From the NCBI RefSeq assembly GCF_007859935.1, contig NZ_SJPO01000006.1, positions 372,001 to 436,000 of the forward strand: a stretch of DNA of 64,000 bases, written 5' to 3'. The translations under genes and the position numbers were made by a program. The notes below the pieces were generated by a model that made no database searches, was not told the origin of the DNA, and saw nothing but the letters and a program-made list of their open reading frames with translations. Of the stretch, positions 25,563-49,690 are shown piece after piece. How positions within the stretch are numbered: position 1 is the stretch's first letter; each line of letters begins with the position of its first letter. Origin of the DNA: Posidoniimonas polymericola. GTDB lineage: Bacteria > Planctomycetota > Planctomycetia > Pirellulales > Lacipirellulaceae.

Positions 25563-25609
25563 CCGGGTCCTTGGTGGCGGGGGAGTGGGTTGCCTGGGCG
25601 GGCCGTGGG

Positions 25610-27575
<1,966 letters not shown>

Positions 27576-27592
<17 letters not shown>

Positions 27593-31954: not shown

Positions 31955-32713
31955 ATGGGCGATTCAACCGCTGCATATCTAGTAATCGGGGCATCTGGCT
32001 CGATCGGCGCGGCAACCGCCCGCAGGCTAGCGGCTTCGGGCGCCCGGGTTGCGCTCGCCGCCCGGTCAAGTGATCGGCTGCTAGAGCTCGCCTCGGAGCT
32101 CGACGCCCCGTGCTTCGAGATTGACCCCACCGAGATTGGCGAGGTCGAGGAGGCGTTCGGCGCCGCTGCGGAGCAGCTTGGCGGGCTGACCGGCGCGGTC
32201 AACTGCGTCGGGTCGCTGATGCTGAAGCCGGCGCACCTCACCAGCGCCGACGACTGGGCAGACACGCTCCGCATCAACCTCACCTCGGCGTTTGCCGTCG
32301 TGCGGGGCGCGGCGCAGACAATGCGCCGCAGCGGTGGCTCAGTCGTTTTGATCTCGTCCGCGGCGGCGCGGCACGGATTCGCGAACCACGAGGCAATTGC
32401 CGCCGCCAAGGCGGGCGTCATCGGGCTGACAACTTCGGCGGCGGCTACGTACGCCCCCTTCGGCCTGCGGTTCAATGCGGTCGCCCCGGGCCTGGTGCGA
32501 ACCCGCATGACCGAGCAGATCTGGTCGAAGGACGCGTCGCGGGCTGCCTCCGAGGCGATGCACGCCGTGGGTCGACTCGGCGAACCGGACGACATCGCCA
32601 GCGCAATCGCCTGGCTGCTCGCCCCCGAAAACAGCTGGCTCACCGGCGAGGTGCTCACCGTCGACGGCGGCCTGAGCACGGTCCGCACCGCCGCCCGCAA
32701 AAAGCCTAGCTAG
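31955..32713 (+). CDS. Short-chain dehydrogenase-like protein lacking catalytic Tyr
   Basis: 252 residues from ATG 31955. A classical SDR fold: nucleotide-binding GASGSIGAATARRLAASG, NCVGSL in place of NNAG, the conserved Ser in VVLISSAAA, and VAPGLVRTRMT. The YxxxK motif is changed: NHEAIAAAKAGV has Ile where the catalytic Tyr should be, though Lys remains. The enzyme may be inactive as a reductase or use a different mechanism. It follows the DUF2867 gene and converges with the cyclopropane synthase gene; their stops share CTAG. Confidence 0.82.
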   Translation: MGDSTAAYLVIGASGSIGAATARRLAASGARVALAARSSDRLLELASELDAPCFEIDPTEIGEVEEAFGAAAEQLGGLTGAVNCVGSLMLKPAHLTSADDWADTLRINLTSAFAVVRGAAQTMRRSGGSVVLISSAAARHGFANHEAIAAAKAGVIGLTTSAAATYAPFGLRFNAVAPGLVRTRMTEQIWSKDASRAASEAMHAVGRLGEPDDIASAIAWLLAPENSWLTGEVLTVDGGLSTVRTAARKKPS

Positions 32714-33996
32714 GCGGCTGGTGCACCAGCAACGGTGCGGTTGAGCGGCTTCGTCAGCACCCACTGCGACACGCCAACCTGCCGCTCGCGGAAGCCGGCT
32801 TCACAGTACGCAAGGTAGTACTCCCAGGTACGCAGGAATCGCTCGTCGAAGCCCAATGCGTGCACTTTAGGCAGCTGGCCCCACAACCGTTCCCGCCACT
32901 CGCTCAGCGTCCGGGCGTAGTGGTCGCTGAAGTCCTCCTGCTGCATCAGCCGCAGGTCGGTTTGCTCCGCCAGGCATCCGGTAATGGCGCTGGGACTCGG
33001 CAGGAACCCACCGGGAAAAATGTACCGCTGAATAAAGTCGACCGAGCGGCGGTAGCGTTCGTACCGGCAGTCGGGGATGGTGATCGCCTGCAGCCCCATC
33101 GCCCCGTCTGGCTTCAACAGGCCCGAACACTGCCGGAAATAGCCGGGCAGGTACTCCTCGCCAACCGCCTCGATCATCTCGATCGAAACAACCCGGTCGT
33201 ACTGCCCGCGGAGATCGCGGTAGTCGCTCTGAAGCAGCTCGACCCGGTCCGCGACGCGTGCTTCTTCGAAACGCTGCTTCGCGTAGCTGTGCTGATTCTC
33301 GGAGATGGTTGTCGTCGTGACCCGGCAGCCGTAGGTGCGGGCGGCGTGCTCGGCGAAGCCGCCCCAGCCCGTGCCGATTTCGAGCACGTGGTGCTCCGGG
33401 CCGATCCGCAGCCTGCGACACAGGCGATCGTACTTCTCGACCGAAGCCTCTTCGAGCGTGGCGTGGGCGCTCGGGAAGATGCCGCTCGAGTAGGTCATCG
33501 TCGGGTCGAGCATCAGCGCGAAAAATTCGTTGCTGAGGTCGTAGTGCGCGGCAATGTTGCGGCGGCTGCCGTGGGCCGTGTTCCGGCGGAAGCGGTTGAC
33601 GGCCGAGCGGAGCGGGCGGAGCGCCCGGGGCACACCACGCTCGACCTGCTGCAGGGCGGTCGCGTTGCGGGCCAGCACCCGCAGGGTGGCGGTGAGGTCC
33701 GGCGCGTCCCAGTCGCCATCGATGTAAGCGTCGGCCGCGCCGAGCGCCCCGCCCAGGGCGACCCGACGGTAGAACCGCGGGTTCCGCACGTTAATCTCTG
33801 CGGTCGGCTCCTCGGGCCCAAGGTCAATCACGACGCCCGGCTCACGCAGCGTCAGACCGCCATGCAGTAAACCCTTGAGCCGCCCCAAAACCAACGCGCG
33901 GAGCCGGCGCTCCAGCCAAGACGCTCGGGCGGGCCTGCGGTCGTCAACGGCTACGGGCTGGAGGGCAGGTTTTGTGGGTGAGGATAGAAGGGACAT
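32710..33996 (-). CDS. cfa: Cyclopropane-fatty-acyl-phospholipid synthase
   Basis: 428 residues from ATG 33996; a GTG at 34008 is an alternative. SAM-dependent enzyme adding a methylene or methyl group to lipid double bonds. Seen: HYDLSNEFFALMLDPTMTYS, SAM-binding VLEIGTGWGGFAEHAA, TISENQHSYAKQR, IEMIEAVGEEY and FIQRYIFPGG. It is the last gene of a leftward five-gene run, and its 5' end overlaps the DUF1365 gene by 46 bases. Members beside DUF1365 and a flavin oxidase may make products other than cyclopropanes, such as furan or methylated acids. Confidence 0.9.
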   Translation of the reverse strand: MSLLSSPTKPALQPVAVDDRRPARASWLERRLRALVLGRLKGLLHGGLTLREPGVVIDLGPEEPTAEINVRNPRFYRRVALGGALGAADAYIDGDWDAPDLTATLRVLARNATALQQVERGVPRALRPLRSAVNRFRRNTAHGSRRNIAAHYDLSNEFFALMLDPTMTYSSGIFPSAHATLEEASVEKYDRLCRRLRIGPEHHVLEIGTGWGGFAEHAARTYGCRVTTTTISENQHSYAKQRFEEARVADRVELLQSDYRDLRGQYDRVVSIEMIEAVGEEYLPGYFRQCSGLLKPDGAMGLQAITIPDCRYERYRRSVDFIQRYIFPGGFLPSPSAITGCLAEQTDLRLMQQEDFSDHYARTLSEWRERLWGQLPKVHALGFDERFLRTWEYYLAYCEAGFRERQVGVSQWVLTKPLNRTVAGAPAA

Positions 33997-34715
33997 TTTT
34001 TCCACCACAGCAGGAACGCTTGATAGTAAATCGCCATCAGCACTTGGGTCGTCGCCAGCGGCCGCCTGAAGGCCAGCGACTGGATCGCACGCCGCGTGAG
34101 CGGCCGCCTCGTGAGCCGCATGCAGGCGTCGAACCGGCCGTGGCCGCCGCCGCAGCTAGCGAGCGCTACAACGAGCTGGTCGCCGGGCGGGGTGAGCCGC
34201 CAGTGGTAGTCCGCGTCCATTCCCATGAACGGCGACACGTGAAAGTCTTTGCTGTGCTCGAACCGCAGCGCGTCGCCCCCGGGCCGCCGGTTGGCGTTCG
34301 ACAACAAGTACAGCCGCCGCTCGCCCCACGGCGTGTTGTTCACCTCGGCCAGCACCTGCTCGACCCGGCTGCCGCTCGCGTCGTAGACGTAAAACAAATT
34401 CAACGGGCTAAAGTAGTGCCCGAACCACCGCAGCTGCGTGAGGACTCTGATCGGGCCGCCAGGCGAAGGTCCTCCCAGCCCCGCAATCGACCGACAGACA
34501 CCCTCGCGGAGATCCCGTGTGCTCCCGTCCAGATGATCGCCAGCGCTGTGAGAAGCAAGCGACCACCGGCTACTTGCTATTGCCCGGCCGGCGCCGACAA
34601 CCTCGTCGAGTTCATCGAGGTCGAGCCACGCCATCGCCAGCGGGTAGCGGAAGCGGTGCTTCAGCGGCTGCCGGCGGCGGTGGGCAACGACCCCCTCGTA
34701 CAAGCAGCTGTGCAT
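33951..34715 (-). CDS. DUF1365 family protein
   Basis: 254 residues from ATG 34715. Conserved stretches are SCLYEGVVAHRR, HRFRYPLAMAWLDLDEL, RWFGHYFSPLNLFYVYD and FHVSPFMGMDADYHW, typical of DUF1365, a family of unknown activity nearly always coupled to a flavin amine oxidase and a cyclopropane synthase. The start lies 55 bases inside the flavin oxidase gene and the end 46 bases inside the synthase gene, so the three are firmly co-translated. A role in membrane lipid modification is inferred from this association. Confidence 0.88.
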   Translation of the reverse strand: MHSCLYEGVVAHRRRQPLKHRFRYPLAMAWLDLDELDEVVGAGRAIASSRWSLASHSAGDHLDGSTRDLREGVCRSIAGLGGPSPGGPIRVLTQLRWFGHYFSPLNLFYVYDASGSRVEQVLAEVNNTPWGERRLYLLSNANRRPGGDALRFEHSKDFHVSPFMGMDADYHWRLTPPGDQLVVALASCGGGHGRFDACMRLTRRPLTRRAIQSLAFRRPLATTQVLMAIYYQAFLLWWKKCPFYPHPQNLPSSP

Positions 34716-35974
34716 GCTTCTAGTCCGATTCCAAAATGTTTGGCGACCGCCAGCGCGCTGTTGACGCCGTCCTCGTGGAAGCCGTAGCCCCAGTACGCTC
34801 CGCAGTAGTGTATCCGGTCGCGGCCGCTGATCTCGTCCCACCTCGGCTGGGCGCCTATCGAGTCTGCCGAGTACGCCGGGTGGGTAAAATGGAACTCGCG
34901 GATCACCGATCCCGGGTCGATCGGCGTCGTTGGGTTGAGCGTCAGCAGCAACGGCCGCGGTGTCTTCAACCCCTGCAGCCGGGTCAAGTCGTAGGTAACG
35001 GTTGCCGGTGAGTCGCTTTCGGTCGAGAGCCGGTAGTTCCAACTTGCCCAAGCCGCCGAGCGGGAGGGCAGGGCGGACGCATCGGTGTGCAACACGGCTC
35101 GATTGGGCTGGTAGGGGAATGCCGAGAGAACCTGCCGCTCGTCCGCTGTGGGGCGGTGGAGCATCGCCAGGGTCTGATCGGCGTGGGTGGCGAACACGAC
35201 CTCATCGAAGCACTCTTCGCTGCCGCTCGCCCGGCGGACGGCGACGCCCGCGGGCCGCCGCTCCACAGCGACAACCGGATCGCCAGTCCTGATTCCGCCT
35301 GCTTCTTCGAGCGGGCTCAGCAACGCCGCGACGTACCTCCGCGAGCCGCCCGTGATGGTGCGCCACTGCGGCCGGTCTCGCAGCTGCAGCAGGCCGTGGT
35401 TCTGGAAGAACCCGATGAGGAAGGGGGCTGGGAAAGCCAGCACCCCGCTCGGCCGGCTCGACCAAATAGCCGCTGCCATCGGCGCCAGGTAGTGTGACAC
35501 AAACCGCCGGCCGACGCCGCACTGCTCGACGAAATCGCCGGCTGAAAGGTTGGCCAATTCCGCGGGGTTGTTGGCCGCCCGACGCGCCGATCGGTTGAAC
35601 CGCACGATGTCGGCAATCATCCGCCAGAACCGCGGGTCGACCGCGTTGCGACGCTGCGCAAACAGGCCGTCAAGCGAGCTCCCCTGGTACTCCAGCCCGG
35701 TCGCGTCGCAGCGGACGCTGAAGCTCATGTCGCTCGCGCGGGAATCGATGCCGAGCAGCTCCAGCATCCGGCAGAAATTGGGGTAGGTGCGGCGGTTGAA
35801 CACCATGAACGCGACATCCGCCGCGACCCGCACGCCGTCCACCTCAACATCAACCGTCTGGGCGTGCCCGCCGAGGTGGTCGGCCGCCTCGTAGAGCGTC
35901 ACCTCGTGACGGCTCGCCAGGAGCCGGGCGGCCAGCGAGCCACTAACGCCTGATCCGATCACCGCGACCCGCAT
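34661..35974 (-). CDS. Flavin amine oxidase-like protein (lipid cluster)
   Basis: 437 residues. The N-terminus is a Rossmann FAD-binding motif (VAVIGSGVSGSLAARLL, then YEAADHLGGHAQT). Mid-protein GVLAFPAPFLIGFFQNHG and TITGGSRRYVAAL, and C-terminal YCGAYWGYGFHEDGVNSA, are family hallmarks. Relatives next to DUF1365 and cyclopropane synthase genes are thought to oxidise or desaturate modified fatty acyl chains. The exact reaction is unknown. The gene starts one base after the desaturase stop. Confidence 0.87.
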   Translation of the reverse strand: MRVAVIGSGVSGSLAARLLASRHEVTLYEAADHLGGHAQTVDVEVDGVRVAADVAFMVFNRRTYPNFCRMLELLGIDSRASDMSFSVRCDATGLEYQGSSLDGLFAQRRNAVDPRFWRMIADIVRFNRSARRAANNPAELANLSAGDFVEQCGVGRRFVSHYLAPMAAAIWSSRPSGVLAFPAPFLIGFFQNHGLLQLRDRPQWRTITGGSRRYVAALLSPLEEAGGIRTGDPVVAVERRPAGVAVRRASGSEECFDEVVFATHADQTLAMLHRPTADERQVLSAFPYQPNRAVLHTDASALPSRSAAWASWNYRLSTESDSPATVTYDLTRLQGLKTPRPLLLTLNPTTPIDPGSVIREFHFTHPAYSADSIGAQPRWDEISGRDRIHYCGAYWGYGFHEDGVNSALAVAKHFGIGLEACTAACTRGSLPTAAGSR

Positions 35975-35975
35975 G

Positions 35976-36941
35976 CTAGGCCTCGGCTTTATGGAGGTTG
36001 AGATTCTCTCGCCGCAGCTCCGCAGGGCCGGGCTTCAGGTCCCACACTAGGCCCAGCCAGGAGAGCATCACCAACAGGTAGTAGGAGACGTCCACCTGCC
36101 ACCACAGGAAACCTTGCCGGGCAGAATTTGGGTAGTAGTGGTGGTTGTTGTGCCAGCCCTCGCCGAAGGTCAGCAGGGCAAGCCAGAAATTGTTCCGGCT
36201 GTCGTCGTTGGTTTGGTAGGGGCGGTTGCCGTACTTGTGGGCCAGCGAGTTGATGGCGAACGTGGTGTGGTAGAGCGCGATGGTCGAGATCACGAACCCC
36301 CAGACCAGCAGCTGCGGCCCGCTGACACCAAGGCCGGGGGCGTAGGCCTCGAGAGCCACGCCGAGTGCGTAGGTCGCTACGGCCAGCACGGCCGGCGCGA
36401 CAAACTCGTGCCGCTCAATCCAGCGGAGCTCGGGGAACTTGAGCAGGTCCTTGACCATTTTCTCGTTCGTCCCGTAGTTCTCCCGCGTCATGAACCACAG
36501 CATGTGGCTCCACAAGAAGCCCTGCTGCCGCGGCGAGTGGATGTCGTCGACGCTGTCCGAAGCGCGGTGGTGGTGCCGGTGGTGGGCGGCCCACCAGATG
36601 GGCCCCCGCTGCGCAGCCGCACTGCCGAGCAGAGCGCCGGCAAACTGCACCGCCCGGCTAGTCTTGAACGCCCGGTGCGAGAAGTAGCGGTGGTAAAACG
36701 CCGTGAGCGCGAAGACCCGCAGGAACAACAGAAACAATGCCAACCCTACCGCTGTCCAGCTCCACCCCACCCATAAAACCAGCAGGCAAGCGGCGTGCAG
36801 CAGCAGGAATGGGGCGACCCGGAACCACTCGACGCGGTCCTCTTCGCCCTGGCAGGCTAGGCACTCTACTGCGGGGGCGGGCCCGGGGCTCGGCTCTACC
36901 TGGTAGGGGCTATCGGAGAGGGTTGGGGGGAGATTGGTCAT
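35976..36941 (-). CDS. Acyl-lipid/acyl-CoA delta-9-type fatty acid desaturase
   Basis: 321 residues from ATG 36941. A membrane di-iron desaturase with the three His boxes HRYFSH, HRHHHR and HNNHH and several hydrophobic spans (for example LLLHAACLLVLWVGWSWTAV). It introduces a cis double bond in saturated acyl chains, providing the substrate for the cyclopropane-type synthases nearby. A 40-residue polar N-terminal extension holds a CLAC motif. Lying between DUF1295 and the flavin oxidase, it is part of the same leftward run. Confidence 0.92.
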   Translation of the reverse strand: MTNLPPTLSDSPYQVEPSPGPAPAVECLACQGEEDRVEWFRVAPFLLLHAACLLVLWVGWSWTAVGLALFLLFLRVFALTAFYHRYFSHRAFKTSRAVQFAGALLGSAAAQRGPIWWAAHHRHHHRASDSVDDIHSPRQQGFLWSHMLWFMTRENYGTNEKMVKDLLKFPELRWIERHEFVAPAVLAVATYALGVALEAYAPGLGVSGPQLLVWGFVISTIALYHTTFAINSLAHKYGNRPYQTNDDSRNNFWLALLTFGEGWHNNHHYYPNSARQGFLWWQVDVSYYLLVMLSWLGLVWDLKPGPAELRRENLNLHKAEA

Positions 36942-37017
36942 TAACCTCTGGCCAGGCGTTGGGGCGGGCACGCTGCGATCCAGATTTTTAGCAGGACGCC
37001 CGCCGATGACCACCCGT

Positions 37018-37797
37018 CTAGGGTGAGTTTTTCGGCGGCCACGGGACAAACGCACTCGTCCGCCGGGCGTAGTCGCCGTAGGCGTCGAGTCGCTGCGACA
37101 AGGACTTCTCCAACAGCGTCACGCCGGAAACCTTCAACAGCAGCACCGAGATGGTCAGCGGCCCGATGATTGTCCACCACCAAGACCCACTTTCCGCCGC
37201 CGCCAAGTAGATTCCCCACCAGAGCACGAACTCGCCGAAGTAGTTGGGGTGCCGGCTGTAACGCCACAGACCACGGTCCATGACCTGCCCTTGGTGGGAC
37301 GGATCGGCCTTGAAACGCGCCAACTGCAGATCGGCCGTGGACTCCACCGCCAACCCAACAGCCCAGACCGCCGCGCCGAGCAGGGTCAGCGGGCCGATTG
37401 CGTCTGGCTCAACCATTCCCACCTGGAGCGGCAGAGCTATGATCCAGGCAAGCGCGGCCTGGAGCCCGAAAACGGTCGCCAAGCTAATCAGCGGGAACCA
37501 CCCACCGTGTTTGTCGCGCATCGCCGCGTAGCGGTGGTCCTCCCCGTGTCCCCAGTTACGGTAGATTAGGTACCCGGAGAGCCGCAGCCCCCAGAGGGTC
37601 ACCATCGCGGCGACTAACCACTCGCCGGCCGCCGGGCTCTGGGAACGAGATACCGCCACCCACGCAATCAGTACAAAGCACAGACCCCATACCGGATCGG
37701 CGACGCTGGCGTCGCGTTTTGCCAGGCTCAGGCCCCACGCGGCTAGTTGCAACAGGATTACTGCTAAGAGACCAACCGCGAGCACGTCTATCGTCAT
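37018..37797 (-). CDS. DUF1295 membrane protein (steroid 5-alpha-reductase-like)
   Basis: 259 residues with about six to seven hydrophobic spans. Conserved VADPVWGLCFVLIAWVAV and the C-terminal DRGLWRYSRHPNYFGEFVLW motif define DUF1295, related to steroid 5-alpha-reductases and isoprenylcysteine methyltransferases. It probably binds NADPH and acts on a lipid in the membrane; the substrate is unknown. It is the first gene of the leftward lipid operon and is divergent from the second cyclopropane-type methyltransferase. Confidence 0.87.
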   Translation of the reverse strand: MTIDVLAVGLLAVILLQLAAWGLSLAKRDASVADPVWGLCFVLIAWVAVSRSQSPAAGEWLVAAMVTLWGLRLSGYLIYRNWGHGEDHRYAAMRDKHGGWFPLISLATVFGLQAALAWIIALPLQVGMVEPDAIGPLTLLGAAVWAVGLAVESTADLQLARFKADPSHQGQVMDRGLWRYSRHPNYFGEFVLWWGIYLAAAESGSWWWTIIGPLTISVLLLKVSGVTLLEKSLSQRLDAYGDYARRTSAFVPWPPKNSP

Positions 37798-37878
37798 CCT
37801 GGCCCACCAATCACGAACTTCTACAATCCCAGCATCCTACTCTTACCGACCACAGCCCGCTGACAAGCAGGAGCGAAA
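37798..37878. promoter_or_regulatory. Divergent promoter region of the lipid/photolyase module
   Basis: 81 bases between the starts of the DUF1295 gene (leftward) and the methyltransferase gene (rightward). Both arms of the module are probably driven from here. TTCTACAATCCCAGCATC and ACTCTTACC are A/T-richer than the flanks, but no promoter or operator can be assigned with confidence. Confidence 0.4.
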
Positions 37879-38943
37879 GTGAACGTCATCGATCTCGCCG
37901 AAAGCCGGCTGCTGCCCGACTGGCTGATCCGCGCGGGCATCCGCCGGCTGCTCGCCCAGCGCAAACAAAACCCTCAGCAGGCCGAACGCCGGGCGTCGGT
38001 CCAAGAGTTTGCCGACCAGTTGCGGCAGGGCCCGCTCGCCATCGCGACCGACGCCGCTAACGAGCAGCACTACGAGGCGCCCGCGGCGTTCTTCAATGAG
38101 GTGCTTGGGCCGCGACTGAAATACAGCTGCTGCCTGTTCGACGATCCGAACGCGACCCTCCGACAAGCGGAGGAAGCCATGCTTACCCTCACCTGCAGCC
38201 GGGCCGACCTGCAGAATGGTCAGCGGATCCTCGAACTCGGGTGCGGCTGGGGGTCGCTGTCGCTCTGGATGGCAGAGAAATACCCCGACGCTCAGGTAAC
38301 GGCCGTATCGAATTCGAACAGCCAACGCGAGTTCATCCAGGCGAGGGCCGGCGAGCGTCGGCTCGAAAACCTGGAAGTGATTACCGCCAACGTCACCGAG
38401 TTTGAGCCGGCAGGAACGTACGACCGCGTCGTGTCGGTAGAAATGTTCGAGCACATGCGGAATTACGAGGAGCTGTTCCGCCGCGTGTCGAGCTGGCTCG
38501 AGCCGGACGGCGTCGCCTTTGTTCACGTGTTCTGCCACGCGGGCGAGCCGTACCTGTTTGAAGACAACGGCCCGAACGACTGGATGAGCCGCCACTTCTT
38601 CACCGGCGGCACGATGCCGTCGGACGATCTGTTCGCGTGCTTCGACAAACACCTCCGCATCGCTGAGCAGTGGCGCGTCGACGGCACGCACTACTGGCGG
38701 ACCTGCGAGCACTGGCTGCAGAACCTCGACGCCACTCGGCCAGAGCTGCTCAAGATCCTGGGCGAGGGCCTCGAGGCCGGCGAAGCGAAACGGATGCTGC
38801 AGCGGTGGCGGATGTTCTTCATGGCGTGCGCCGAGTTGTTCCGCTATGAAGAGGGCCAGCGGTGGCTGGTGTGCCACTACCGTTTCGAGCAGGCCGCCTC
38901 TCCGCAGACCAGCGAAACCCGGCCGCTTGCACACCAGGCCTAG
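37879..38943 (+). CDS. Second cyclopropane-synthase-family methyltransferase
   Basis: 354 residues from GTG 37879, with AGGAGC six to seven bases upstream. SAM-binding motif ILELGCGWGSLSLWMAEKYP, then SNSNSQREFI, VSVEMFEHMRNYEE and HYWRTCEHWLQNLDA. It is shorter and divergent from the other synthase, resembling the SAM methyltransferase found beside photolyase genes in many light-response clusters. It is six bases upstream of the photolyase gene. Substrate unknown; a membrane lipid is likely. Confidence 0.88.
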   Translation: MNVIDLAESRLLPDWLIRAGIRRLLAQRKQNPQQAERRASVQEFADQLRQGPLAIATDAANEQHYEAPAAFFNEVLGPRLKYSCCLFDDPNATLRQAEEAMLTLTCSRADLQNGQRILELGCGWGSLSLWMAEKYPDAQVTAVSNSNSQREFIQARAGERRLENLEVITANVTEFEPAGTYDRVVSVEMFEHMRNYEELFRRVSSWLEPDGVAFVHVFCHAGEPYLFEDNGPNDWMSRHFFTGGTMPSDDLFACFDKHLRIAEQWRVDGTHYWRTCEHWLQNLDATRPELLKILGEGLEAGEAKRMLQRWRMFFMACAELFRYEEGQRWLVCHYRFEQAASPQTSETRPLAHQA

Positions 38944-38948
38944 GCCGC

Positions 38949-40484
38949 ATGAAGAGCAAACCACTACGCAACCTGGTGCTGGTGCTCGGCGACCAGCTCA
39001 ACGCCGACTCGGCCGCGTTCGATGGCTTCGACCGCGATGCCGACGGCGTCTGGATGGCGGAGGTCTGCCACGAGTCCGAGCACGTCTGGACCCACAAGGC
39101 AAGGATCGTCATGTTCCTCGCCGCCATGCGGCACTTCCGCAACGCCCTGGAGGATCGCGGGCTGCGGGTGCTGTACCGCGAACTACCGGCGACGGGCAAG
39201 GACTCGATCGAGACTTTCAGTGACGCCCTCGAGCAAACACTCGCCGAGCTCGAATGCTCAAAGCTGGTGGTCGTCGACCCGGGCGAGTGGCGGGTGCGGC
39301 AGGAGCTGAAGGACGCCGCCGAGCGGCTTGGCGTGGCGCTCGAGTTTCGCGCCGACCGCCACTTCCTCTCGACGCCCGAGCAGTTTGCCGAGCACGCCGA
39401 GGGACGCAAGCAGCTCCGCATGGAGTACTTCTACCGCGAGATACGCCGACGGCACAACGTGCTGATGAAAGACGGTAAGCCGGTGGGCGGCAAGTGGAAC
39501 TTCGACCACGACAACCGCAAGTCGTACGGCAAGCAGGGCCCCGACCCCCACCCTCCCAAGGCGTTCCCGCCCGACGCGGTGACCGCCGGGGTGATCAAGC
39601 TGGTCAACAGGCGGTTCGCCGAGCACCCGGGCGATATGGACGCGTTCGACTGGCCAGTGACGCCAGAGCACGCCGCCCACGCGCTGAAAGACTTCATCAA
39701 GAACCGGCTCCCCCGCTTCGGCGACTACCAAGACGCGATGTGGACCGGCGAGCCGTTCCTCAACCACTCGCTGCTGTCGGCGGCGATGAACCTCAAGCTG
39801 ATCAACCCCGCCCAGGTCGTTCAGGCCGCGGTCGACGCCTACCAGGACGGCTCGGCGCCGCTGAATTGTGTCGAGGGCTTTGTGCGGCAGATCCTCGGCT
39901 GGCGCGAGTACGTCCGCGGCGTCTACTGGCTGCACATGCCGGGCTACCTCGAGCGGAACGAGCTCGGCGCCGACCGGCCGCTGCCCGACTTCTACTGGAC
40001 AGGCGAAACGGAGATGGCCTGCCTGCGGGACGCCATCGGTCAGACACTCACCTACGGCTACGCCCACCACACCCAGCGGCTGATGGTGACCGGCCTGCAC
40101 GCGTTGCTGGTGGGGGTCGACCCGCGCGAGGTCCACAAGTGGTACCTGGCGGTCTATGTCGACGCGGTCGAGTGGGTTGAGCTGCCCAACACGCTCGGCA
40201 TGTCGCAGTTCGCCGACGGCGGCGTGATGGCGAGCAAGCCGTACGCCGCGTCCGGCAAGTACATTGACCGGATGAGCAACTACTGCCAGTCGTGCCGGTT
40301 CGCCCCGGCCAAGGCGACCGGCGACGACGCCTGCCCGTTCACTACGCTCTACTGGGACTTCCTCGACCGCAACCGCGAGCGTCTGGAGGAAAATCAGCGG
40401 ATGAAGCTGCAGGTCAAGAACCTGGACAGGAAGACCGACGAAGAGCTCGCGTCGATCCGCGAGGCGGCGGCGCGGCTGCGTTAG
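38949..40484 (+). CDS. FeS-type cryptochrome/photolyase (CryPro/6-4 photolyase class)
   Basis: 511 residues. The N-terminal alpha/beta domain (LRNLVLVLGDQLNADSAAF) and C-terminal helical FAD domain match prokaryotic FeS-BCP photolyases, which repair (6-4) photoproducts. Four Cys for a [4Fe-4S] cluster are visible: one in LNCVEGFVRQILGWREYVRG (about residue 305) and three in NYCQSCRFAPAKATGDDACP (about 445-462). FAD-site segments include LTYGYAHHTQRLM and WYLAVYVDAVEWVELPNT. It follows a methyltransferase gene, linking DNA photorepair to lipid modification. Confidence 0.92.
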   Translation: MKSKPLRNLVLVLGDQLNADSAAFDGFDRDADGVWMAEVCHESEHVWTHKARIVMFLAAMRHFRNALEDRGLRVLYRELPATGKDSIETFSDALEQTLAELECSKLVVVDPGEWRVRQELKDAAERLGVALEFRADRHFLSTPEQFAEHAEGRKQLRMEYFYREIRRRHNVLMKDGKPVGGKWNFDHDNRKSYGKQGPDPHPPKAFPPDAVTAGVIKLVNRRFAEHPGDMDAFDWPVTPEHAAHALKDFIKNRLPRFGDYQDAMWTGEPFLNHSLLSAAMNLKLINPAQVVQAAVDAYQDGSAPLNCVEGFVRQILGWREYVRGVYWLHMPGYLERNELGADRPLPDFYWTGETEMACLRDAIGQTLTYGYAHHTQRLMVTGLHALLVGVDPREVHKWYLAVYVDAVEWVELPNTLGMSQFADGGVMASKPYAASGKYIDRMSNYCQSCRFAPAKATGDDACPFTTLYWDFLDRNRERLEENQRMKLQVKNLDRKTDEELASIREAAARLR

Positions 40485-40571: not shown

Positions 40572-41156
40572 CTACTTGCTCGCGGGGCAGCTCGACGCGG
40601 CCTCGGCCTTCAGCGAGGTGTAGCTGGTCTCCGAGTCGTGCGAGGCCTGGCTCGTCTTCGCTTCTTCCTTCGGCAGCAGGACGCTGTCGATGACGTGGAT
40701 CACGCCATTGCTGCACATGATGTCGGCCTTCACAACCTTGGAGCCGTTGATCATGACGTTGCCGTCCTTCACGGCGATGTCAACCATCTTGCCGTTGAGG
40801 GTCTTGGCCTGCTTGAGCTTGGTCACCTGCTCAGCGGTCACCTTGCCCTCGACCACGTGGTAGGTCAGGATCGCGGTCAGCTTCTCTTTGTTCTCCGGCT
40901 TCAGCAGCTCGGCGACCGTGCCCTCGGGGAGCTTCTTGAAGGCGTCATCGGTCGGGGCGAACACGGTGAACGGGCCCTTCCCCTTGAGGGCTTCAACCAG
41001 ACCGGCCTCGCCAACCGCGGTGGTCAGCGTCTTAAATGAGCCCGCACCAACCGCCGTGTCAACGATGTCTTTCTCGGCGGACATGGCGGCCGAAGAGAGT
41101 GACAGGACCGTTACGGCGGTGAGGCATGACGCAAACGTTTTGATAGTGGCAAACAT
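40572..41156 (-). CDS. Secreted fasciclin (FAS1) domain protein
   Basis: 194 residues. An N-terminal signal peptide ([21 protein letters not shown]) precedes one FAS1 domain with the conserved [25 protein letters not shown] and [13 protein letters not shown] segments. A Ser/Ala-rich C-terminal tail follows (residues about 168-194). FAS1 proteins act in adhesion or matrix contact, usually outside the cell or in the periplasm. It is a single gene with its own terminator. Confidence 0.93.
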
Positions 41157-41438: not shown

Positions 41439-42296
41439 CTAGCTCGAGAACCGCGTCTTGTCGCCGACCGGAAGCATCAGCCGCAGCGGCGCGAGCAGGT
41501 TGTCACGCAGCGTCGAACGACGCGCGGCGTGCTTGCAGAGAATGACCGTGGTGTCCATCTGCTTGAGATTATCCTCATGCTCCCGCTCGAGGTCCGCGAG
41601 CAACTTCGCTACCTGACGCTGCGGGTCGAGTGGGCCCAACCCGCGCAGGCGATTGAGCAGCTCGGCTACCGACAGCGGCATGCCGTCGGACGTCCGGCAC
41701 TCGAGCAGTGATTCGCCGTAGAACAGCACCCGGTCGTCCGGGCCGAGCTGCAACGAACCCCGCTGGTACTCGCCCGACTCGAGCAGCGGCTCGTCGACCG
41801 TCGTCTTAGTGTCGGCCGAAGCCGACGCGGGGAAGAGCGACCACTCGCGGAGCGCCGCACGGTACAGCAGTGGCGGCGGGTGGCCGGCGTTGCAAACCGT
41901 CAGCCGCCGATTGGGGGCGAAGTAGGTCGCCATCATCACGGCTCCGCAGCCGCCCTGGTCGGCGGAATCTTCGAGCACCCTACGCATGCCCGACTCGCAG
42001 CCGCCCTGCTGAATACGGTTGACGTGCTTTTTGAGCAGCTCGCGGAACTTGGCCGCGATGTCGACGAACGCACCCCGGCCGGGGACTAGGTCGGCCAGCA
42101 GGAACCGCGTGATTCGACCCGAGGCGCAGGACGACACGAAGTGCAGCCCACCGCCCTCGGGGCCCGACGCACGGGCAGACAGCCACAGGTCCAATCCGGG
42201 GCGTGACAGCTCGTGCTCGCCTGGCGAGTTCCCGCCCCAGACTTCCATGCAGCGGAGACGGTCGACGGGCGGCGGTGAGGCATCGAAGGTAGTCAT
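41439..42296 (-). CDS. SpoIIE/PP2C-type serine phosphatase
   Basis: 285 residues from ATG 42296; a GTG at 42335 is possible. Metal-site remnants include LLADLVPGRGAF (in place of DVxGHG), YFAPNRRLTVCNAGHPPPLLYR, DDRVLFYGESLLECR (in place of YTDGLLE) and QMDTTVILCKH. Such enzymes dephosphorylate STAS or anti-sigma regulators in partner-switching. No sensor domain is attached. It lies alone between the fasciclin and MerR-like genes; the STAS gene near 55.7 kb is too far away to be an assured partner. Confidence 0.78.
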   Translation of the reverse strand: MTTFDASPPPVDRLRCMEVWGGNSPGEHELSRPGLDLWLSARASGPEGGGLHFVSSCASGRITRFLLADLVPGRGAFVDIAAKFRELLKKHVNRIQQGGCESGMRRVLEDSADQGGCGAVMMATYFAPNRRLTVCNAGHPPPLLYRAALREWSLFPASASADTKTTVDEPLLESGEYQRGSLQLGPDDRVLFYGESLLECRTSDGMPLSVAELLNRLRGLGPLDPQRQVAKLLADLEREHEDNLKQMDTTVILCKHAARRSTLRDNLLAPLRLMLPVGDKTRFSS

Positions 42297-42457
42297 GGGC
42301 GTCAGCGACAGCTTGGGTAGCTCGCGGGTGAGCACGCGGCGCGGTGAGCTTGCAAGTTGGCAGCCAGGCGTCCAATGCGTGTCTTTGCCTTTACTGTAGC
42401 AGCCGCCGCCGGGGCGACCACCAAGAACTTTGCAATCAGCTCCCCTCTAACCCGCGG

Positions 42458-43390
42458 CTATGCCTTAATCGCCTCGACGAACCCCTGCAAGTGAGCCATT
42501 GTGTCGCAGAAGGCCGAGTAGTGGAGCTGCTTGCGAATCTCGTCGGTAAGCGCTCGCCCGCCAACCACGATTTGCGACCTGTCGGCGACCTGCGACCGGA
42601 ACGCCTGGAACTCGGCCAAGAACCCGGGCGGGTCGGTGAGGTAGCTGCAACTAATCCAGACTACCTTCGGACGCTCGCTCTGGACCGCGTCTGCCAGGCT
42701 GGCGAGCGGGATATTCTCGCCGAGCGAAGTCGCCCGCCAGCCGAGGTCGCTCAACACCAGGCGGGTCATGTCATTCGGCAGGCTGTAGTAGTCGCCAGCG
42801 GTCGACGCCCCGATCGCGAGCGGCGCGTCTGGCTCGGGCGGCTGGCAGAGGTTCTGCAGGTCGACGAGCGTCTGCTCGACAATCCCGCACGCCCGGCGCT
42901 CCTGGTAGATCGACACTTGCCCTGTTTCCCACAGGGCGCCGACGCGGTGCATTGCCGGGGCAAGGACCGCGTCGCACAGCTCGGCCATGCCCACCCTTGC
43001 GACCGCCAGCTCGACGCCAATCTGTCTGGCGGTTGCCTCCTCGCCTGCGGTGATGGCGGCCGTGAATCGATCGACCGCGCCCGCCAGGCAGGGCCTGCGG
43101 ACAGTCGCTGGCGCCACCAGGCCTATGGCCGCGGGTTCCACCACCCGCCGATCGGTCCGCTTCAGAAAATCGAGCAGCTCGCTCATCGGCACCCGACGGT
43201 GCCCCCCGGCGGTGTGCTCGGCGCGGATCAGCCCACCGTCGCACCAACGCTTGATCGAGGACTCGCTGACATCGAGCGCCCGGGCGATCTGCTTGGGAGA
43301 GAGTAGCTGCTGTAAATCGGTACCGCTCACGGAATTTGGTCTCGATGGCGCCCGTTTTGCCCGCTTCTCTATCGCTGCAACCAACCGCAT
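42458..43390 (-). CDS. MerR-type regulator with degenerate B12-binding domain (CarH/LitR-like)
   Basis: 310 residues. A MerR-like HTH (about residues 29-75: LSPKQIARALDVSESSIKRW, TAGGHRRVP) is followed by a helical cap and a Rossmann B12-type domain (from about 195). In CarH the helical cap carries W-x9-EH, and the Rossmann domain an (E/D)xHxxG His that ligates cobalt. Here the cap reads LWETGQVSIYQERRA (Arg for His) and the loop reads AGDYYSLPNDM (Tyr for His, Pro for Gly). Both cobalamin ligands are lost, so another ligand or none is likely. It is divergent from a sigma factor. Confidence 0.82.
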   Translation of the reverse strand: MRLVAAIEKRAKRAPSRPNSVSGTDLQQLLSPKQIARALDVSESSIKRWCDGGLIRAEHTAGGHRRVPMSELLDFLKRTDRRVVEPAAIGLVAPATVRRPCLAGAVDRFTAAITAGEEATARQIGVELAVARVGMAELCDAVLAPAMHRVGALWETGQVSIYQERRACGIVEQTLVDLQNLCQPPEPDAPLAIGASTAGDYYSLPNDMTRLVLSDLGWRATSLGENIPLASLADAVQSERPKVVWISCSYLTDPPGFLAEFQAFRSQVADRSQIVVGGRALTDEIRKQLHYSAFCDTMAHLQGFVEAIKA

Positions 43391-43496
43391 CGCTGAGCAG
43401 GCCCTCCCTTATTTCAACCTTAGCCTCTGCATTCGACCACTAAAAGAACATTTTTCGGTAGAAGCAGCTTGCAAGGTGCCCCTTAAACCGATACGA

Positions 43497-43515
43497 TTCA
43501 AATGAACGATTTGAA
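43497..43515. promoter_or_regulatory. Inverted repeat before the sigma factor gene
   Basis: TTCAAAT, five bases, ATTTGAA form a perfect 7-5-7 dyad, 26 bases before the sigma factor ATG, in the 150-base A/T-rich region shared with the divergent MerR-like gene. Its 19-base length is similar to MerR-class operators. It is a candidate binding site for that regulator; nothing but position supports this. Confidence 0.4.
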
Positions 43516-43540
43516 CGTTTCACTAATCTTGGAGTCTCCG

Positions 43541-44461
43541 ATGGCGACCGCCACTGCTACCCGCACTCCCAATCGCCGCTCACGGGCTGCTAGGGTCCAG
43601 CGCGGCGAACAACTGCTTTCATCGGGATTCACCTACATCGGCTGCGAAGCGATCGCTTCGGCAGACCTCCAGCCCGCCGAAGCAATCCGCCAAGCCGAGC
43701 GGCTGCTAGACGGAGACCAAGACCGGGTCGGCAAGATGTGCGAGGAGGAGATCCTCACCCCGCAGCACGAACGCGACCTGTTCCACTCGCTCAACTTGCT
43801 GAAGCGGCTCGCCGCCGAAATCGCGGAGGGTGTGAACCGGAGCAACCCGAAGAGTGCCGAACTCGACGAGATCGAGAGCCTGTCCAAGGCGGCATTGCAG
43901 GTCCGCGACTACATTATCCGCTCGAATCTGCGACTCGTTTACGCGGTCGTCAAGAAAACGCTCGGATCGAACAGCACGCTCGGGTTCGACGAGTTCGTCA
44001 GCGACGGCGTCTGCACGTTGATGAACGCGGTTGAGAAGTTCGACTACAGCCGCGGTTTCCGGTTCAGCACCTACGCGTACCGATCGGTGGCCCGCACGGT
44101 CTACCGGGCCATGCTTGCCGCCCAGAAGGAAGAGTCACGGCTCGCCCGGGACGCCGAGGACTGGGCGTTCGAGCAGCAGCCGGAGGAGAGCCCCTCGCTG
44201 GCTCACGACGTCGTGGGGGAACGCCTCCGTTCTGCCGCGGCGGCGATGGTCGACAAGCTTGATCGCCGAGAGCAGCTGATCATCCGCAGCCGCTACGCCC
44301 TCGGCGCCCACCGCAAGGTCCGCAGCTTTCAGGACATCGCCAATCGCTTGGGGATATCCAAGGAGCGGGTCAGGCAACTCGAGAAGCGTGCCAGCGACAA
44401 GCTGCACGAGATGGCCTCTCAGCTCGACCACGACGAGCTGTTTGGCGCCGCGCTGGCCTAG
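43541..44461 (+). CDS. RNA polymerase sigma-70 family factor
   Basis: 306 residues from ATG 43541, with TTGGAG seven to nine bases upstream; a start at 43502 is possible. Region 2 contains RSNLRLVYAVVKK, LGFDEFVSDGVCTLMNAVEK and FDYSRGFRFSTYAYRSV; region 4 contains FQDIANRLGISKERVRQLEK. The N-terminal 100 residues are a divergent region 1.2-like helical part. It belongs with alternative group 2/3-like factors and is not an ECF factor. It is divergent from the MerR-like regulator, and both may share control of the nearby light/lipid module. Confidence 0.9.
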   Translation: MATATATRTPNRRSRAARVQRGEQLLSSGFTYIGCEAIASADLQPAEAIRQAERLLDGDQDRVGKMCEEEILTPQHERDLFHSLNLLKRLAAEIAEGVNRSNPKSAELDEIESLSKAALQVRDYIIRSNLRLVYAVVKKTLGSNSTLGFDEFVSDGVCTLMNAVEKFDYSRGFRFSTYAYRSVARTVYRAMLAAQKEESRLARDAEDWAFEQQPEESPSLAHDVVGERLRSAAAAMVDKLDRREQLIIRSRYALGAHRKVRSFQDIANRLGISKERVRQLEKRASDKLHEMASQLDHDELFGAALA

Positions 44462-44870: not shown

Positions 44871-46802
44871 ATGCCAACCCAACGGTCGCAACCGCAGGGC
44901 AAACACCGCTCGCTTGGGCCGAAGGGCCCCGGCGCGTTGGTCGCCATGCTGCTCTGCGCCGGCTGGGTCGGATTCTGGGCGAGCGGCGCCCCGCGCCCGC
45001 TCGCGAACAACCCGCCGGTCCCCAGCCCTGCGGCCACGCAAACCGGCGCGGCAGACGCGTCCGTGGTCCGTCGGCCGGTCGACCTGCTGGCAGTAGACGG
45101 GCCGCGGCTGGCGGCGGTCCATCAAGCCGTGGAATGGCGTGAGGCCCCGCTCGCGCACAGCGTGACGCCCGTGGTCTCGGACCGGTACCTGGTTGCGCAG
45201 GCGCCGCTGACGCCGGAGTACCTGCCCCGCGAGCCGCTGCCGCCGCCGGTTCCGTCGCCGCCGACCCCAGCCAACGGGTCTCCGACGACCAACGAGCCGC
45301 CCAGGCAAGTCCTGCTGCCGATCGATCAAGCAGGCGCGATTAACGGCTCGGTCGAGGCCACCGGCGAGCTGGTCTCGGTGGCGGTCCGCGAGGCGCCGCT
45401 GCACTCGGTGCTGTCGCTGCTCGCCCAGCAGCAGGGGCTGAGCATCGTCGCCAGCAGCAGCCTGACCCAGCCGGTCACCGTCACGCTGCAGCCGACCTCG
45501 TTGGAGAATGCGCTCGACGCGTTGCTCGCGGTCGCGGGCTGCACCTGGACCAGCCGCAACGGCGTGATCTACGTCACGGCGATGACCAAGGAGGGCTCTT
45601 CCAGCCCGTTCTTCCAGGGGCGCGAGGTGCGTCTGTTCTCGCTGAACTACGCCTCGGCCGAGGACGTCGAGAAGGTGGTGGCCGGTCTGCTCTCGCCGGT
45701 CGGCAAGGTGTTCATCCGCCAGGTCAGCCCGACCGACAAGCTGCGGACCGTCGAGCAGGTGGTGGTCGAGGACCTGCCACCGTTCATCGAGCGGATCGCC
45801 GACTACATCGCCCAGGCCGACCAGATGCCGCGCCAGGTCATGATCGAGGCCCACATCCTGCAGGTGCGGCTCGGCAAGGACAAGGCGCACGGCGTCAACT
45901 TCGACGCCCTCACCCGCCTGAGCGGCGCCAAGGTGCAGCTCTGGAGCAAGGGCCTGGCGAGCGAGGACGGCCCGGGCATGGTGTTCACGGTCGACGGAAC
46001 CGACTTCAACAGCGTGATCGACTGTATCACCAACACCACCGACGCCAAGACGCTCGCCTCGCCCAAGACGCTGGTGATCAACGGGCAGGAGTCGAAGATT
46101 CAAATCGGCAGCCGGCTGGGCTACTTCGTCACCACGACGACCCAAACCAGCACCCTGCAGGACGTCCAGTTCTTGGAGGTGGGCGTCGTGCTGCACGTGA
46201 CGCCGATGATCACCGCGGACGGGCAGGTGCTGATGCAGGTGGCGCCGAAGGTCTCGAGCGGCGACATCAACCCCGTGACCACGCTGCCCGAAGAAGAAAC
46301 CACCGAGGTCGACACGTCGGTCCTGGTGCCGGACGGCCACGGCATCATCATCGGCGGGCTGATCCAGGAGTTCAACACCGAGCGGCAGAGCAAGCTCGGC
46401 TGGGCGGGCGACCTGTGGGGCATCGGCAGGCTGTTCCAACGCCGCTCGGTCGACCGCGAGCGGAACGAGGTGATTGTCGCCCTGCTGCCGCGGATTGTGC
46501 CGTGCGGCTCTTGCGAAGAGGCGACCGAGTACGACCGGGCCACCACGCCGCTGCTCGAGCCACACCTGGCCCCGGCCTACCGGCCCTGGGAACCCGCGCT
46601 GCCGGACGCGACCCACCGCCCGCTGTGGGCAATCAAGTCGGCGCCAGCAGCCGCGCACAACGAGGCAGGGGAGTGCACCGAGGTCGTCGCGGAGCCGGTC
46701 GTCGCGGAGCCGGTTGTCGCAGAGCCACTCGGAATGCAACCCACCGTTGTCGAGCAGCCGTCGGAGTCACTTGAAGTCCTCCGCCTGCCGGCGATCAACT
46801 AG
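44871..46802 (+). CDS. Secretin (GspD/PilQ-like outer-membrane channel)
   Basis: 643 residues. An N-terminal hydrophobic segment (ALVAMLLCAGWVGFWASG) acts as signal or anchor. A Pro-rich linker leads to an STN-like domain (about 165-235: SVAVREAPLHSVLSLLAQQQ, ending GVIYVT), an N-domain, then the secretin core (about 330-545; PRQVMIEAHILQVRLG, LASPKTLVINGQES, VLVPDGHGIIIGGL). A C-terminal tail holds VVAEP repeats. It forms the outer-membrane pore for the pilus/secretion system encoded downstream. It is separated from the assembly operon by leftward pseudopilin genes. Confidence 0.9.
   Translation: MPTQRSQPQGKHRSLGPKGPGALVAMLLCAGWVGFWASGAPRPLANNPPVPSPAATQTGAADASVVRRPVDLLAVDGPRLAAVHQAVEWREAPLAHSVTPVVSDRYLVAQAPLTPEYLPREPLPPPVPSPPTPANGSPTTNEPPRQVLLPIDQAGAINGSVEATGELVSVAVREAPLHSVLSLLAQQQGLSIVASSSLTQPVTVTLQPTSLENALDALLAVAGCTWTSRNGVIYVTAMTKEGSSSPFFQGREVRLFSLNYASAEDVEKVVAGLLSPVGKVFIRQVSPTDKLRTVEQVVVEDLPPFIERIADYIAQADQMPRQVMIEAHILQVRLGKDKAHGVNFDALTRLSGAKVQLWSKGLASEDGPGMVFTVDGTDFNSVIDCITNTTDAKTLASPKTLVINGQESKIQIGSRLGYFVTTTTQTSTLQDVQFLEVGVVLHVTPMITADGQVLMQVAPKVSSGDINPVTTLPEEETTEVDTSVLVPDGHGIIIGGLIQEFNTERQSKLGWAGDLWGIGRLFQRRSVDRERNEVIVALLPRIVPCGSCEEATEYDRATTPLLEPHLAPAYRPWEPALPDATHRPLWAIKSAPAAAHNEAGECTEVVAEPVVAEPVVAEPLGMQPTVVEQPSESLEVLRLPAIN
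46683..46727 (+). repeat. 15-bp tandem repeat in the secretin tail
   Basis: Three tandem 15-bp units, the third with two changed bases, encode VVAEP three times near the secretin C-terminus. Such repeats expand and contract easily, so tail length may vary between strains. Confidence 0.75.
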
Positions 46803-46825
46803 CACGCCCCTGGCTTGCCGAGCAC

Positions 46826-47524
46826 CTACAGGGCGATAGCGGGAATCACCGCGTCGAACGCGCCCACGCCCGGGACGATCGCCCGCACCTTCAGCACCGC
46901 GTAGGCCGGCGCGATGGCGTCTGGGTCGACGGGCCGCAGCGGGACCTGGAGCGCGGCCCCGCGGAAGTCGCCGCTGTCAGCGGCGATGCGTCCCGACCAG
47001 CGCTGCACCTCCACCGGTTGGCTCCGACCGTGGCGGCCGAAACCGTAGAGGTGCAGCTCGGTGTTGATGGTCGCCGCGACAGGGACCGGGTTGCCGGCGA
47101 TGTCCCGCAGCTGCACGTAGAGCTGGACGCCGTCGACGCCGGCGTCGGCGTCCCAGTTGGCGGCCTGGGCGATTGCCTGCAACGCGGCGACCGGCGGCCG
47201 CGGCGTCGGCGCGGGGGCGGCGACGAATACCACCCCGCCGGCCGGGTCGCCCGCCGGCGGCAGCTCGATTGGGCTGATCGCACCGACCGCTACCACATGG
47301 GCGGCCGGCGTGCGGCTGGCCAGCGTAACCCCTGCGCGGGTCACGGCCAGCCACAGCTCTTGGTTGGTGGTGCGGGGGTCGATCTCGCCCCGCAGGGTGC
47401 GGCCGTCGACGGTAGCGACCCACACCGACTCGCCTACCTCGATCCCGCTCCACGGCTCGGCGCCCGCCGGCGGCAGGGCGCCGGCGATCAACACAAGGAC
47501 GACAGCCAGGGCAGGGCGGGTCAC
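46826..47524 (-). CDS. Exported protein of unknown function in the pilus locus
   Basis: 232 residues from GTG 47524; TTG 47539 is an alternative. A signal peptide (ALAVVLVLIAGALPPAGA) is clear. The N-terminal part has ESVWVATVDGRTLRGEID, a small beta unit; the rest is beta-rich with VQLYVQLRDIAGNPVPVAAT, suggesting Ig-like strands. No family is recognised. It lies leftward between the secretin and pilin-like genes; a periplasmic or envelope role is inferred from the signal peptide. Confidence 0.65.
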   Translation of the reverse strand: MTRPALAVVLVLIAGALPPAGAEPWSGIEVGESVWVATVDGRTLRGEIDPRTTNQELWLAVTRAGVTLASRTPAAHVVAVGAISPIELPPAGDPAGGVVFVAAPAPTPRPPVAALQAIAQAANWDADAGVDGVQLYVQLRDIAGNPVPVAATINTELHLYGFGRHGRSQPVEVQRWSGRIAADSGDFRGAALQVPLRPVDPDAIAPAYAVLKVRAIVPGVGAFDAVIPAIAL

Positions 47525-47760
47525 GGCGGCAATCTCCAAAGGCGAGCCAGGGGTTCGCCAGTCAGAGTTCGCAATCGGGGCGCCAGGAGCCGCGCCGCGG
47601 GCTGTGCGACGCGTTTGAGCCTGCTATCGCAGTGTCTGCAGCCGATCGCCCGCCGCGACGTGAATCGCCCTGTGGCGGAAACGCCCCGGGGGGCGTCGCC
47701 AAAACGCAACGCCGGACAAGCGTGCGATCGCCCGCCGTACCGCTCCGAAGGAGGGCGCCG

Positions 47761-48990: not shown

Positions 48991-49006
48991 CGGGAGGTCC
49001 CAGCGA

Positions 49007-49690
49007 CTACTCGGCGTGGTTGAACAGGCTCGCCCCGCCGCGCAGCGTGCCGCCGCCGGCTGTGAGGTCGTGCGAGACGTACCCCTGCACGGTCGTGTCG
49101 ACCGCCGGCGGCTGCTCCCCCGCGCCCCACCGCGAGCGGTACGCGGTCAGCACGGTGGCGCGGCCCGCCGGGTCGGTCACGGTCACGGTGATCCGCTTCA
49201 GCCCCGCGTCAGTAGCCGAGGCCTGCGTCGGGTCGGCGAGTGTCGCGTAGACAACGCTGCACTGCTGTGTCCAACCGGTGTAGCCAGAGATTGCCGCGCC
49301 CGCCCTCGTGCGTGGCGGCGACTGCGAGAGGTTGTAGTAGTCGTCGACATCGTCCCAGGCGGTGCGGACGGCGACCGGTTCGCCGGTCTCGACGCCGAAC
49401 GTCGGCGGGTCGTCGGGGTCCTCGTACGCCTGCTGCAGCACCTCGGCCATCAGCTGCTCGCCGAGCGAGTGCCCTTGGTAACTTTCGCGGGCCTGGCTCC
49501 AGGTGCGGAGCACACTGCCGGTGGCGTTCATTGCGCCGACCATCACTAGGCCGACCAGTGGGATCGACACCACCACCTCGGCAAGCGAAATCCCTGCGCG
49601 TCGGCGAGCGGGCCGCTTGCCGCGATGTCGCATCGGCAATTCTGCGTATGGGTGATTCGTGTGCATAGGGGTCATTCTCGCAAGCGTCAT
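49007..49690 (-). CDS. Minor pseudopilin (PilV/GspI-like)
   Basis: 227 residues from ATG 49690, which overlaps the upstream stop (ATGA); a start at 49633 would give a shorter, more usual leader. Prepilin motif RRRAGISLAEVVVSIPLVGL, with cleavage after Gly and Glu five residues on. The C-terminal globular domain is beta-rich. It is probably part of the pseudopilus tip complex. It sits in a leftward operon with three other pilin-like genes. Confidence 0.8.
   Translation of the reverse strand: MTLARMTPMHTNHPYAELPMRHRGKRPARRRAGISLAEVVVSIPLVGLVMVGAMNATGSVLRTWSQARESYQGHSLGEQLMAEVLQQAYEDPDDPPTFGVETGEPVAVRTAWDDVDDYYNLSQSPPRTRAGAAISGYTGWTQQCSVVYATLADPTQASATDAGLKRITVTVTDPAGRATVLTAYRSRWGAGEQPPAVDTTVQGYVSHDLTAGGGTLRGGASLFNHAE

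Follow-up and report, generated by a model that had tools for sequence, protein, structure and literature searches.

What might a regulator built like a B12 photoreceptor sense once the residues that define cobalamin binding have been replaced? The question is raised by a gene in a 64,000-nucleotide stretch of the Posidoniimonas polymericola genome, referred to here as the window. Domain order, the residue replacements and their conservation, the predicted fold, the operator with its placement and the gene neighbourhood were computed directly; B12 independence, repression, a sigma-driven regulon and the nature of the signal are what we infer. On balance, the gene probably encodes a B12-independent repressor of the CtMerR/CarH lineage that acts on a divergent sigma-factor gene, responds to a photo-oxidative signal other than cobalamin and controls photoprotection through the sigma factor. 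The features of the locus are collected in Table 1.

Table 1. Location of the regulator, its domains, the predicted control elements and the neighbouring genes in the window.
Feature	Position	Strand	Basis
CtMerR/CarH-lineage regulator gene without both CarH cobalamin motifs	42458..43390	-	ORF, translation, Pfam, fold match 8JBS/8JBT
HTH_17 DNA-binding domain, residues 29-78	43157..43306	-	Pfam 9e-10
Four-helix cap B12-binding_2, residues 107-173	42872..43072	-	Pfam 5.2e-10, residue tallies
Rossmann B12-binding domain (PF02310), residues 192-287	42530..42817	-	Pfam 2.4e-07 (slightly under the gathering score), residue tallies
Predicted sigma-70-type promoter of the sigma gene, TTGCAA-N17-TACGAT	43469..43497	+	8/12 consensus matches
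Predicted operator, tandem 9-bp direct repeat TGAACGATT-TGAACGTTT	43503..43520	+	De novo motif, exact match
Sigma-70-family factor, regions 2 and 4, re-assigned start	43541..44461	+	Pfam region 2 6e-13, region 4 2e-12
SpoIIE-type phosphatase, downstream of the regulator	41439..42335	-	Pfam SpoIIE 2.5e-13
Fasciclin-domain protein	40572..41156	-	Pfam 1.3e-41
DPRP photolyase-related protein	38949..40484	+	Pfam DPRP 5.8e-79
CMAS, DUF1365, FAD amine oxidase, desaturase, DUF1295, CMAS cluster	32710..38943		Pfam and homology

Pocket residues and fold of the regulator

The reading frame encodes 310 amino acids, starts with ATG and is preceded by GGAGG. An earlier note on this DNA had described the domain order of the B12 photoreceptor repressors, and Pfam, the structural model and the fold match all give the same sequence of an HTH, a B12-binding_2 cap and a B12-binding Rossmann domain. 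The alignment with CarH-type proteins also bears out the two exchanges which the note had named, His to Arg in the cap and His to Tyr in the loop. In the cap (sequence GALWETGQVSIYQERRACG), W154-x9-E164-R165-R166-x-C168 stands where CarH has Wx9EH, with R165 as the second residue of the CarH EH; in the loop (GDYYSLP), D200-Y-Y202-S-L-P205 stands where CarH has ExHx2G, with Y202 at the position of the His. The full loop motif, ExHx2G...SxV/T...GG, is kept only in S247-x-S249 and G277-G278, and G224xxxP228 is also retained. For the SignatureFinder light-responsive cobalamin signature, GxxW and GxxxP are present, while EH reads ER and GxxH reads GxxY. The description of the protein as lacking cobalamin ligands is true of the two defining motifs. 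CarH homologues are defined by both of them, Wx9EH and the ExHx2G loop, and by this published definition the regulator is not a CarH homologue (PMC8156234). Against the NCBIfam CarH model it reaches 44.6 bits, the cut-off of the model being 400.

An AlphaFold2 model was built from 49 sequences (pLDDT 86.6, pTM 0.72, residues 1-24 of low confidence). It matches the AdoCbl photoreceptor CtMerR (8JBS/8JBT) with a Z score of 27.3 and 2.1 Å over 217 residues, the photocobilins with Z 24-25, T. thermophilus CarH with Z of about 20 and the AppA SCHIC domain with Z 19.8; the fold comparison was also run with Foldseek. A shared fold does not show a ligand. CtMerR is also the closest solved relative by sequence (2e-28). 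In a tree built without the trait columns, the regulator lineage groups with CtMerR, and the split between this group and planctomycete CarH has 100/100 support; the inner forks are only partly resolved, and this split alone was used.

Relatives of the regulator were matched in 23 of 39 close relatives and in 158 of 396 genomes of the order, the weakest of the latter being B12-domain proteins outside the regulator family. The 80 matches retained from the genome collection all come from genomes titled as planctomycetes or from bacterial bins, and a search of plasmids for relatives returned distant matches only. Of the 129 planctomycete homologues first assembled, all have E164, D200, G224 and P228, while 125 have R165, 124 have C168 and 116 have Y202. 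R165 and Y202 occur as a pair in 114 of these homologues, and the final alignment contains 132 rows with the pair, so that chance is not the explanation; none of the 129 has His at both the cap and the loop position. The 30 CarH-type proteins gathered from other planctomycete families with the CarH model all retain the full set of B12 residues (W, E-H and H-x-x-G).

Within the C-terminal domains, conservation is highest in the altered pocket. Over the 132 R/Y rows, pocket-matching positions have a mean of 4.0 bits vs 2.2 bits for the remainder of these domains (p 1e-9), two key columns being fixed by the choice of rows and the other fourteen being free. The same rows show lineage-specific cysteine columns at positions 50, 156, 168 and 295 (98, 80, 95 and 92%, respectively); unlike the majority, the regulator in the window carries Thr at 156. 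A pocket that is conserved and not eroded argues against a dead domain, and a decayed CarH gene is ruled out, since the replacement residues are conserved over the order.

Other residue combinations are found among the relatives. One subfamily (L267-L275, L241-L243) has an intact E-H cap together with a loop Tyr (IEHRA...GDPYxLP) and is possibly an evolutionary intermediate. Intact E-H/E-x-H forms (L236, L237) occur in genomes that also encode a core family member, and two genomes (G473 with L214/L266, G537 with L205/L263) encode an intact CarH-type and an Arg/Tyr-type protein side by side. The genome of the window holds a second family member with 34% identity (G000 C5, L081), which belongs to a paralogue clade (L081, L070, L084, L088 and the second gene of L093) with E-R-R-x-C in the cap and Ala or Ser replacing Tyr202. 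L081 adjoins a FabI-like reductase gene, and the loci of this clade are without the operator described below. The clade appears to represent a second regulator with another DNA specificity.

Operator and promoter in the divergent region

The earlier note had singled out the region between the two divergent genes (43391-43540) for footprinting, and a conserved putative operator is indeed located there. The motif was found de novo from gapped-word counts in 157 upstream regions: AACG-N5-AACG occurs in 62 of them vs 1.3 expected, and CAAA-N1-CGTT in 75 vs 1.8 expected. The refined matrix describes two tandem 9-bp direct repeats, TGAACGWTT-TGAACGWTT, and scores at least 20 bits in 83 of the 157 loci. 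When 20-kb loci were searched, nearly all sites fell in the intergenic stretch ahead of the family gene, oriented towards the gene that diverges from it. Shuffled DNA (1.16 Mb) gave three matches of at least 16 bits and none of at least 20 bits. The site in the window, TGAACGATTTGAACGTTT, which is the predicted sequence bound by the regulator, scores 27.7 bits, the second-best site in the window 12.1 bits.

This site is the sole perfect match in the genome and one of three with at most one mismatch. The other two, C12:135164 near a CPBP-type protease gene and C16:223 inside a glyoxalase-like gene (L277, L278), may be chance occurrences. A broad direct regulon was rejected, the two extra sites being placed within unrelated genes or downstream of them, and the operator of the window is the one known in this genome with a convincing promoter context. 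Among R/Y loci, the operator is present where the divergent gene encodes a sigma factor (65/71), a fasciclin protein (15/15) or an amine oxidase (8/10). In roughly one in four of the R/Y loci scored (33/127), no site exceeds 20 bits, and no operator was found in the 30 CarH-type planctomycete loci or in those of the paralogue clade. Some loci have a third repeat following the two, others a second site 57-59 bp away, beyond the promoter; for the window, a second operator 58 bp upstream, as in many loci, was not supported.

The placement of the operator suggests how it would act. The -10 element of the predicted sigma-gene promoter ends ca. 5-6 nt ahead of it, and of the 83 loci, 24 have a strong promoter match (at least 9/12) where 3.2 would be expected; most of these matches end 4-7 nt ahead of the operator. 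A protein bound here, where the sigma transcript is predicted to begin, would block transcription initiation. The mechanical reading frame of the sigma factor starts with the ATG at 43502, at the operator. Because 43503-43520 is a conserved operator, we place the gene start instead at the ATG at 43541, which is probably correct and has GGAG 6 nt upstream (43531-43534). The promoter of the regulator itself lies in the same 150 bp, which makes autoregulation likely.

Gene neighbourhood and the candidate signal

In agreement with the arrangement given in the earlier note, Pfam confirms that the divergent gene encodes a sigma-70 factor, and two genes, for a SpoIIE-type phosphatase and a fasciclin protein, separate the regulator from a DPRP-type photolyase-related gene. 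The cluster at 32710..38943, in which DUF1365, the desaturase, DUF1295 and a CMAS were called by Pfam and the amine oxidase and the second CMAS by homology, is likely a photo-oxidative/membrane-lipid gene cluster. A homologue of the sigma factor is divergent in 35 of 61 family loci, and genes for SRPBCC-epimerase, fasciclin, FAD amine oxidase, CMAS, DUF1365, DUF1295 and NmrA/TspO recur around family members. The same gene set is present in the window at 30-40 kb, together with the DPRP photolyase-related gene; the homologue of its fasciclin gene is, in other genomes, the divergent gene that bears the operator. A search for a shared sigma-dependent promoter motif ahead of the lipid and photolyase genes found none, the top words looking like coding conservation. 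That the sigma factor controls these genes is suggested by the neighbourhood. Comparable regulons have been described: the B12-independent class II LitR controls light-regulated photolyase and fatty-acid genes in Pseudomonas (PMC9758184), and a MerR-type protein does so with ChrR in Vibrio cholerae (PMC5241685).

A divergent gene from the recurrent neighbour families is also present in 10 of the 30 CarH-type planctomycete loci, so that regulators with an intact B12 site and those without one may act on similar genes. Of these CarH-type genes (L204-L233), some adjoin fasciclin, DUF1295, NmrA or SRPBCC-epimerase genes. Elsewhere in the window, a secretin gene is followed by genes resembling prepilin or pseudopilin proteins (44871-50769), and positions 22953-29804 hold what is, by sequence appearance only, a probable cluster for trehalose and sucrose metabolism.

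With regard to the signal, the earlier note had offered another cofactor, a protein or light independence. Sequence does not separate the three, but it does give them different weights, a dead domain and the known partners being disfavoured. The strong conservation of the pocket and the cysteines leads us to favour a different pocket ligand or a thiol/redox state, ahead of a BLUF or LOV partner. More specifically, the pocket, with Arg165, Arg166 and Cys168 facing Asp200 and Tyr202, might bind heme, a photosensitising porphyrin or another tetrapyrrole, an assignment we regard as tentative. At L074:12000-14240 and similar loci, an NmrA/DUF2867 protein with a TspO (tetrapyrrole-binding) domain is encoded in one open frame near the family gene, within a gene group of about 10 loci, and may hint at a porphyrin link.

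It is conceivable, if doubtful, that the regulator is instead relieved by an antirepressor and that the pocket is an interface only. B12-independent relatives of known signal use such partners, as in the pairs BluR/BluF of E. coli, class II LitR/short LOV of Pseudomonas and CarA/CarS of Myxococcus (PMC3509220, PMC9758184, PMC8156234), and the SpoIIE-type phosphatase gene adjoins the regulator here and is found near it in several other loci. However, the genome of the window has no match to BLUF (PF04940) or to the exact LOV core NCRFLQ, BLUF occurs in 21 of 196 genomes of the order and in 9 of the 69 family-bearing ones, and LOV-pattern matches in the order hardly exceed the reversed-pattern control. 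This argues against the known partner mechanisms and weakens a BLUF or LOV partner as a general explanation. Moreover, no partner gene is consistently linked to the family loci, and the domain is eroded in BluR/MlrA, whereas here the pocket is the part under the strongest conservation.

Continued binding of AdoCbl or some other corrinoid, in which Tyr202, water or nothing serves as the lower ligand, would leave the regulator a light sensor, which we consider unlikely. The cofactor itself is probably available, made or taken up by the host, judging from the encoded proteins: the genome codes for methylmalonyl-CoA mutase, an AdoCbl enzyme, and its sole B12-binding_2 protein besides the two family members is a 1348-aa frame that resembles methionine synthase in size and type. 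A lack of B12 in the host is therefore not supported as the cause of the motif loss. The CtMerR fold match and the retention of W154, E164, G224, P228, S247 and GG, several of them corrin-contact positions, would suit a corrinoid, but both defining motifs fail that CarH-type proteins keep in 30 of 30, and an Arg follows E164 where the CarH His adjoins the adenosyl group. Improbable, too, is a ligand-free oligomerisation module, its corrin space taken up by Arg165 and Tyr202 and its tetramer thereby held in a dark-like form deaf to small signals: W154 and P228 are nearly invariant, their CtMerR counterparts pack across the dimer (PMC11796333) and M. xanthus CarA represses without B12 (PMC8156234), yet the order-wide invariance of the pocket residues and lineage cysteines exceeds the needs of a filler, and a sigma-factor repressor that never responds would have little use.

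Our preferred reading remains a sigma-gene repressor with a non-cobalamin signal. Without stress, its HTH domains would occupy the TGAACGWTT repeats just past the -10 element, over the sigma transcription start, and keep the promoter blocked. A photo-oxidative signal would change the oligomer and free the promoter, and the sigma factor would then drive photoprotective genes, namely the photolyase, CMAS/DUF1295/desaturase and amine oxidase genes. The signal may be read as a non-cobalamin ligand by the rebuilt pocket, E164-R165-R166-x-C168 facing D200-x-Y202, or alternatively by the conserved cysteines C50, C168 and C295.

Relation to known systems

B12-independent relatives are already known in CarA, BluR and class II LitR. 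What appears to be new is a planctomycete-wide family of the CtMerR lineage with a substituted pocket and its own predicted operator, of which the open-access literature searched holds no earlier description. This literature yielded no paper on planctomycete CarH/LitR, and one occurrence of the operator core, in an unrelated heme-protein paper. The family offers a large natural series in which the fold of a B12 photoreceptor has lost its cofactor motifs while other pocket residues are strongly constrained. As full-His, His/Tyr and Arg/Tyr forms exist in one lineage, the change in cofactor use can be tested stepwise, and the sharp operator provides an easy assay of the regulator and a ready-made reporter. 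For planctomycetes, which have few characterised regulators, regulator and operator together offer a defined stress circuit. If the pocket does hold a non-cobalamin ligand, the family would represent a new class of repressors, spread over the order, that use the CarH fold to sense a ligand.

CtMerR of Chloracidobacterium thermophilum (8JBS/8JBT) resembles the regulator in GxxW, GxxxP, fold and tree grouping, but has EH and a lower-ligand His (His204) where the regulator has ER and Tyr. CarH/class I LitR of T. thermophilus, M. xanthus and B. megaterium share the domain order and the fold (Z ~20), and their operators, like the predicted one here, are tandem direct repeats at the promoter; their repeat is 11 bp long (nAnnTnnACAn), whereas that of the regulator comprises 9 bp (TGAACGWTT) and lies at +1. 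Class II LitR (PplR/PmlR2, Pseudomonas) is B12-independent, as the regulator probably is, with a regulon of photolyase and lipid-modification genes (PMC9758184). It has, however, no recognisable B12-binding Rossmann domain, while the regulator keeps PF02310 (2.4e-07, slightly under the gathering score, and fold match), and it works with a short LOV protein, the exact core of which is unmatched in the genome of the regulator.

BluR/MlrA of E. coli likewise combine a MerR-type HTH with a B12-type C-terminal part, degenerate in their case, and do without cobalamin, as the regulator probably does. Their cap and loop motifs are unrecognisable, in contrast to the conserved pocket of the regulator, and BluR pairs with the BLUF protein BluF, a domain absent from the genome of the regulator. 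CarA of M. xanthus is, like the regulator as read here, a B12-independent CarH-family repressor without Wx9EH; unlike the regulator, it has the canonical B12-binding loop motif, can bind B12 and is relieved by CarS. In the AppA SCHIC domain, the same fold holds heme in place of cobalamin; this domain is without an HTH, which the regulator has.
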